From Halopiger goleimassiliensis (GTDB lineage Archaea > Halobacteriota > Halobacteria > Halobacteriales > Natrialbaceae), in contig NZ_HG315691.1 of NCBI RefSeq assembly GCF_000455345.1, positions 141,087-192,718 on the forward strand: a stretch of 51,632 nt of DNA. The letters are read 5' to 3'. The translations under genes and the position numbers were made by a program. The notes under the pieces were generated by a model that was given only the letters and a program-made list of their open reading frames with translations, ran no database searches and was not told the origin of the DNA. Shown here piece after piece: positions 20,679 through 40,365 of this stretch; position 1 is the stretch's first letter, and each line of letters opens with the position of its first letter.

Positions 20679-20784
20679 GGGCCCTTAGCTCAGTCTGGTG
20701 AGAGCGCTCGGCTCATATCGGAATCCGGTCATCGGGTTTCGTGGGATACCGAGTGGTCGATGGTTCGAATCCGTCAGGGCCCAT
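20679..20784 (+). tRNA. Elongator tRNA-Met (CAU) with 30-nt intron
   Basis: The full cloverleaf can be drawn: acceptor GGGCCCT/AGGGCCC with discriminator A (20784), D stem GCTC/GAGC, anticodon stem CTCGG/CCGAG, and T arm GATGG-TTCGAAT-CCGTC. The anticodon CAT is at 20714-20716. Thirty bases at 20718-20747 interrupt the loop just after position 37, the canonical archaeal intron site; removing them restores the loop CTCATAA. CCA is not encoded. The intron and stem indicate elongator Met. It could instead be tRNA-Ile2 with a modified CAU; the Met call is favoured by the sequence and the intron. Confidence 0.9.
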
Positions 20785-39615: not shown

Positions 39616-39743
39616 TCAGCCCATCACAGTCGCGACTCAGCACCCTCCTCAGCGTTCAATTTCGGGTGTGAATTGATCACCTCTCGATCAAGTCGGTGAT
39701 GTGATTTTCGTGAGTGCAGTGGGAACTCGAACGTCGAACACTT

Positions 39744-40260
39744 CGAAAGCCCTCGCCGCTGTGGCGGTCGCTCAGCGACATATCCGCGCAAGCGCGGATA
39801 GGGGTCGCTGAAGCGACTATATGAAACGCCACAGCGGCTCGCCCTTTCAGTCCGCCAGGAGGGGCCTGCCCTTCCCCGGGTCGCGCGGCTCCACACCTAT
39901 TGTGCGGAGCCGCGCTCCCGGCCACATGGCGCGCTGGCGAACCGTCCGAGCAAAGCGAGGTGCGAAGCATCTCGGAAAGCGAACGGTGAACGGAGTGAAC
40001 CGTGAACTGATGAGAAGGACGGTTCGCTAATCCGCGAGGGGCGAGCGAACGGAGTGAGCGTTAGCGCGGAACCGAAGGTTCCGCGAACCATGCGAACGGG
40101 TGCGCAGCACCCGTGAGCAGAAGTCGGCTGGGGAGGGTGAGGCTTTGGGCGGGACTGAAAGGGGCCGACCGTCTCGAGGAAGGCGGGCGATGCAAGCACC
40201 GCAGGTCGAAGACCGAGGCGCGCAGCGAGCCCCCCGACTCGAGACGGTCGGGGGCTTTCG
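39744..40260. repeat. Compound inverted element with structured ends (contains repeat copy 4)
   Basis: The outer ends are inverted copies: CGAAAGCCC (39744) and GGGCTTTCG (40260). Each end is a structured module that starts ACTGAAAGGG and closes GGGCTTTCG around a long stem. Left: GCCGCTGTGGCG/CGCCACAGCGGC (39755-39766 with 39827-39838), enclosing hairpins GTCGC/GCGAC, TATCCGCGC/GCGCGGATA and GTCGCT/AGCGAC. Right: CCGACCGTCTCGAG/CTCGAGACGGTCGG (40165-40178 with 40238-40251). The stems differ completely yet pair perfectly. Between them are a 10-bp hairpin (39883-39915) and modular repeat copy 4. This could be a non-autonomous mobile element or two convergent structured RNAs. Confidence 0.75.
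39926..40140. repeat. Modular dispersed repeat, copy 4
   Basis: Begins TGGCGCGCTGGCGAA and ends GTCGGCTGGGGAGGGTGAGG. The interior has GAGCAAAGCGAGGTGCG as in copy 2, then hairpins ACGGT/ACCGT with loop GAACGGAGTGA-like sequence, a GCGAGCGAACGGAGTGAGCG module, GCGGAACC/GGTTCCGC and CGGGTGC/GCACCCG. Flanks of copies 1 and 3 are absent. It is embedded in the compound element at 39744-40260. Confidence 0.78.
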
Positions 40261-40365
40261 CTGTGTTCTCGATCCTGTTGTCAACAGTCGGTCCTCGATC
40301 GGCCCGTTTCCATCCGCGATATATCCACACCCGGAATCGTGCACGACGGCTCCAAGCGATGCGGG

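Follow-up and report, generated by a model that had tools for sequence, protein, structure and literature searches.

A composite repeat of Halopiger goleimassiliensis is built on paired structured units of a family found across the Halobacteria

Within the window, the whole 51,632-nucleotide stretch of Halopiger goleimassiliensis DNA that was analysed, positions 39660-40336 were best explained as an old composite copy of about 677 bp, which belongs to a haloarchaeal non-autonomous MITE-like family and whose core is a head-to-head doublet of structured units. We give this reading a probability of about 0.6. Transposition was evident in one genus (g54), and the results from other genera suggest it there as well. 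As judged by sequence comparison, the folded strand is under structural selection and is carried by a MITE-like family.

The features of the composite copy are listed in Table 1. The original prediction described two ends with one common shell and differing perfect stems of 12 and 14 bp, all of which were found at the positions given there; the left and right units share the shell GGACTGAAAGGG...GGGCTTTC, and their stems are unrelated. The same prediction took the shells as the boundaries of the element, which had to be corrected, since the stretch repeated among the aligned compound copies runs from about 39660 to 40336. Five compound copies of this genome (L002, L003, L004, L006, and L007) aligned with the window copy and have in common with it the outer inverted repeat TTTCGGGTGTGRATTKATC, a pattern present in this genome only at compound copies. 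The paired outer repeats span roughly 560-690 bp. This outer repeat was not IS6-like, and no target duplication was found when one was looked for at the window copy and its relatives in the same genome. Parts of the central region were found again elsewhere in the genome. When the outer inverted repeat was sought in short Haloarcula doublets, no excess over shuffled sequences was observed. As a separate observation, the G-rich block TCGGCTGGGGAGG lay within 90 nt 5' of 44 of 247 units, compared with 22 for shuffled sequences, a weak count with two mismatches allowed.

Table 1 Features of the composite copy (positions of the window).
Feature	Position	Strand	Remark
Outer inverted repeat TTTCGGGTGTGAATTGATCA bounding the repeated element on the left	39660-39679	+	Conserved, as is the right repeat, in the six compound copies aligned
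Left structured unit, type A interior, shell type 2, GACTGAAAGGGCGAG...CGAGGGCTTTC	39745-39852	-	
Left unit, first arm of the perfect 12-bp stem (GCCGCTGTGGCG)	39755-39766		
Left unit, second arm of the 12-bp perfect stem (CGCCACAGCGGC)	39827-39838		
Central region (modular repeat copy 4 of the original prediction)	39854-40152		Variable among aligned compound copies
CCTGCCCTTCCCC, matching the G-rich block at 40124-40136 in inverted orientation	39866-39878	-	Compound-copy alignment
G-rich block TCGGCTGGGGAGG	40124-40136	+	Also 5' of type-1 units in many other genera
G-tract run GGGCGGGACTGAAAGGGG, 5' foot of the right unit	40147-40164	+	Tract pattern, 219 type-1 units
Right structured unit, type B interior, shell type 1, GACTGAAAGGGG...GGGGCTTTC	40153-40259	+	
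Right unit, first arm of the perfect 14-bp stem (CCGACCGTCTCGAG)	40165-40178		
Right unit, second arm of the 14-bp perfect stem (CTCGAGACGGTCGG)	40238-40251		
Outer inverted repeat GATATATCCACACCCGGAA bounding the repeated element on the right	40318-40336	-	

The structural evidence came mainly from covariation. In type B (the right-hand type), both-side compensatory changes were observed in 23 of the 30 consensus pairs, and 94.8% of the cells were paired, compared with 72.2% in shuffled alignments and 29-52% with slid partners; in type A, both-side changes affected 17 of 34 pairs. For example, the type B interior pair AAGCAC/GAGCGC is replaced by AAGGAC/GACCGC in some units (columns 50 and 88), the first shell pair shows a compensated change in genus g27 (GACTCAAAGGGG...GGGGCTTTG), and compensated changes were also found within single loci (L214/L216, and L287 vs L297). 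Three small hairpins had been proposed for the left end; these can be read in the sequence, but the covariation backs one nested rod instead, in which the ATCCGCGC..GCGCGGAT hairpin is innermost and TCGC/GCGA pairs close around it. Compared with dinucleotide shuffles, the right hairpin gave a z of -3.97 when folded as RNA and only -1.28 as DNA, and the left hairpin gave -6.67 as DNA. Furthermore, the outer stems read on the GACTGAAAGGG strand contained 43 G.T mismatches and 8 A.C mismatches, and it is therefore this strand that folds as a single strand. The asymmetry fits RNA and single-stranded DNA alike.

Each unit combines an invariant shell with a stem that varies freely but stays paired; the letters of the internal loops are conserved, and G-tracts lie at the 5' foot. 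Two shell types were distinguished, type 1 with the foot GGGNGGGACTGAAAGGGG and GGGG on the 3' side, and type 2 with GGNGGACTGAAAGGG and GGG; the corresponding tracts are GGGNGGG..GGGG..GGGG and GGNGG..GGG..GGG. Positions -6 to -4 of this tract pattern lay outside the search pattern. Because the four foot tracts change length together, the two shell types suggest, as a conjecture, that a G-quadruplex (quadruplex-duplex hybrid) may form at the foot. Nested inside many units, for example at L129:3866-4092 and L079:6666-6850, is a further element whose stems vary within a conserved shell of its own (GTTCGA..CGTGATCACG..GGACGAC).

The search for the shells in haloarchaeal genomes that accompanied the original prediction revealed a class-wide family. 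The pattern GACTGAAAGGG occurs in 23 copies in this genome (reversed control pattern, 0), and GGACTGAAAGGG was found in 187 of 292 Halobacteria genomes with up to 156 copies (controls, 0-2). The covariance model R1, built from 57 right-type units, matched 248 of the 292 genomes (~85%) and 66 of 76 genera. In a phylum-wide sample of 197 genomes, 35 matched with a best E of 2e-25, every one of them Halobacteria. None of the 69 IMG/VR contigs with the exact 14-mer held a unit, and no unit was matched in phage records. In the open-licence PubMed Central literature, no earlier description of the family was found, and the papers listed by an exact-motif search were all unrelated; the RepRanger REP survey covers archaea, and its text contains no word starting with "halo". 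This repeat family of haloarchaea, with its high copy number and very clear covariation, is apparently undescribed in that literature.

Evidence of mobility was obtained in genus g54. In one genome (G239), the hairpins of four doublets (L442-L445) were identical, and a fifth doublet (L447) was closely similar; all five occupy different loci and extend as far as the terminal repeat GGTACTGTTTAGATTAGC or one of its variants. Exact 8-bp target duplications were identified at L445 (TCGAACCG), L447 (TCAGCGAC), L449 (GTGACCGT), and L475 (CTGGCTTC), and in another record (L159) the 8-bp CAACGATC flanks the doublet on both sides. The g54 mini-elements are non-coding, about 294-432 bp long, and bear IS6-type terminal repeats. 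Elements of ~700 bp in G280 have ends matching these doublets, an IS6-family transposase (NF033587, E 1.5e-61, 207.6 bits against a cut-off of 125), and the 8-bp duplications CCGTTCAC and GCGATTTC; the terminal repeats are therefore common to mini-elements and intact IS6-family elements (G239/G280). The identical doublets L442 and L443 (G239:C7, about 1577000 and 1814300) share an inverted 8-bp flank, CTCGCGAC/GTCGCGAG, as expected from a chromosomal inversion between the copies.

Outside g54, the link to IS6 was traced through the flanks. IS6-like ends were found outside units in several genera, in 22 of 300 cases (g54 copies included) and in none of the shuffled ones, mostly 39-57 nt outside the shells; the genome under study has an end of this kind at one unit (L016). 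A weight matrix accepted 51 outer flanks, 40 of which lay at +39/40 or +51/52 from the shell. Since hits of this set had served to train the matrix, and 21 inner flanks likewise exceeded the threshold, more weight falls on how the positions cluster. The idea that the hairpins themselves are transposon ends was not supported: the IS6-type ends lie mostly beyond the shells, and a separate outer inverted repeat bounds the window copy. The prediction of a non-autonomous mobile element is supported for the family, given the g54 doublets, 8-bp duplications, and IS6 ends; the window copy has neither ends nor duplication of this kind. A helper transposase, which the original prediction had proposed to look for, was found in g54 as IS6-family elements whose ends are shared by the doublets and differ from the outer repeat in the window. 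An IS1595 helper, suggested by the 8-bp duplication, was lacking in this genome and in half of those examined. Single units, whose wide occurrence would by the original prediction speak against a compound element, gave a mixed picture: they are frequent, yet some of them derive from doublets in which the partner hairpin was deleted and remains of its shell were kept (L276, L295, and L256); in L278 both hairpins are lost.

Only an IS6 remnant was found in this genome, several of the highest-copy genomes have remnants or none, and congeners without exact-motif copies have 8-16 IS6 matches, indicating that the copy number today does not follow the helper. In genus g41, exact-motif copies numbered 141, 156, and 29 in G137, G281, and G264, respectively, and 0 in G041, G059, and G113, and the IS6 matches ran opposite to copy number, G264 excepted. 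Moreover, a MITE needs no covarying hairpins, so that the structure is not explained by transposition. As the window copy has no IS6 ends or duplication, we placed it in the structured-repeat family and did not file it as an IS6 MITE; its mobility would be either past or by way of another vehicle.

Gene predictions made with a codon-based script placed only 1 of about 240 units within a gene, the remainder being intergenic. No orientation bias relative to genes was observed (sense 50, antisense 42, p = 0.47; single units, tandem contexts). Doublets less than 600 bp apart were all minus-then-plus, that is, head-to-head, with spacers of 30-39 bp (mostly type B with type B) or about 185-520 bp. 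Enrichment among neighbouring genes yielded ordinary genes, with no transposase or recombinase among the families listed.

Comparison of orthologous sites showed both turnover and constraint. At one Haloarcula site, L210-L213 carry one hairpin, L214 and L215 another, and L220 a third, and the shell is collapsed in L217 and nearly completely lost in L218, the close flanks being kept; further sites likewise showed different hairpins in one shell, or the shell alone. Where the hairpin was the same, it was 92-100% identical with flanks ranging from 33 to 99%, and the unit was more conserved than its flanks at most compared sites. In L217 (G187, Haloarcula), two small tandem genes are inserted beside the collapsed shell, a pair that we take to resemble a toxin-antitoxin pair. 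L262 was rejected as a clean empty site since its right flank is not syntenic.

Such constraint is also what would be expected if the units were, or belonged to, a functional non-coding RNA or a protein-bound transcript element that has been multiplied, with mobility being secondary. The single-strand folding seen in the covariation and in the excess of G.T over A.C is in keeping with the paired RNA genes offered as one option by the original prediction, as are the conserved internal loops; however, neither an AT dip nor a promoter-like signal was detected when the 120 nt preceding 253 units were searched, two promoters would scarcely fit into the 30-39 bp between the units of short doublets, and RNA genes are not indicated by the unbiased orientation. 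With Rfam 15 at gathering scores, the units gave only weak sub-threshold matches, and a tRNA was the sole match in the window (20679-20783; 105 bases against a 71-position model, probably intron-containing). On these sequence-based grounds, we consider an RNA function of this kind rather unlikely to be the primary explanation. It is also favoured by several Haloarcula plasmids, where one type-A unit adjoins an OB-fold gene at a fixed place. There, as in L434:4000-4640 of Haloarcula marismortui pNG500 and its relatives, the unit forms the 3' end of a strongly conserved non-coding stretch of ~550 nt. This stretch has a TATATAAA box on the strand of the unit and 5' to it, is divergent from the OB-fold (SOSS B-like) gene, and was found again in part on the small plasmids pNB101 and pHLAJ5II. 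This arrangement keeps in play both the RNA reading and one in which the hairpins are origin-like sites of single-strand initiation or transfer that spread from plasmids. The fixed unit lies on plasmids typed MPF_T and the module next to it is common to pNB101 and pHLAJ5II, but these two hold the module without the hairpin and chromosomal copies number tens to hundreds, which makes an origin-like role very improbable.

Inverted doublets, extragenic placement, many copies, and single-strand-specific hairpins would suit a REPIN-like system, in which inverted REP doublets are moved as single-stranded DNA by a hairpin-recognising HUH (Y1) transposase. This was already weakened by the search for a Y1/RAYT helper, as no Y1_Tnp (PF01797) was matched in this genome (G000) or in the high-copy genomes G146, G161, G026, and G231. 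Taking into account also the 8-bp target duplications and IS6 ends in g54, the unit length of more than 100 nt, and the differing tags, we hold a REPIN-like origin to be highly unlikely.

We return to the composite MITE-like copy. An IS6-family transposase would act on ends outside the hairpins and so spread the doublets, and the window copy would be a relic, or a member of a second vehicle with another terminal repeat. The hairpins would function as RNA or single-stranded DNA and not as transposase ends, perhaps binding a host protein, and gene conversion or nested exchange between copies may have placed different hairpins in one shell. We further propose, tentatively and with less than even confidence, that these are class-wide single-strand-folded elements (~85% of Halobacteria genomes) under structural selection despite stem turnover, swapped within an invariant shell, possibly forming a quadruplex-duplex hybrid, and with a host-side function that outlives the transposase. 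In this family, small elements that depend on IS6 are linked with a folded strand under strong constraint. This raises the question of what a mini-transposon gains from keeping an RNA-like structure and why it has stayed in genomes from which the transposase has been lost. The family further offers natural compensatory variants that can be used directly to test the structure.

Among known systems, the SMR and PATE repeats of Haloquadratum (PMC3119063) resemble the present family as small transposase-free haloarchaeal repeats that tend to nest in each other; SMR-A measures about 110 bp, and inverted repeats or palindromes close to the ends are present. By their description, the SMRs differ in being near-identical copies without target duplications. 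IS6-family MITEs are alike in the GGTASTGTTCAGATWAGC-type terminal repeat, the 8-bp duplication, and the ends shared with an intact IS of the same genome (g54); in contrast, the present family carries two long covarying hairpins, and the window copy has no such ends or duplication. The g54 elements and the window copy, the latter by its own outer repeat, are short and non-coding with terminal inverted repeats, as MITEs are, and the 8-bp target duplication was observed in g54 and L159. Bacterial REP/REPIN/BIME sequences are likewise extragenic, of high copy number, and arranged as inverted hairpin doublets, but the units here exceed 100 nt, have variable stems in an invariant shell, show DDE-type duplication in g54, and occur in several carriers with no Y1 (HUH, RAYT) transposase. 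Integron attC sites conserve their structure, vary in stem sequence, and are recognised as single strands; the units here resemble attC sites in keeping the fold while the stem letters vary, and no cassette arrays were seen.
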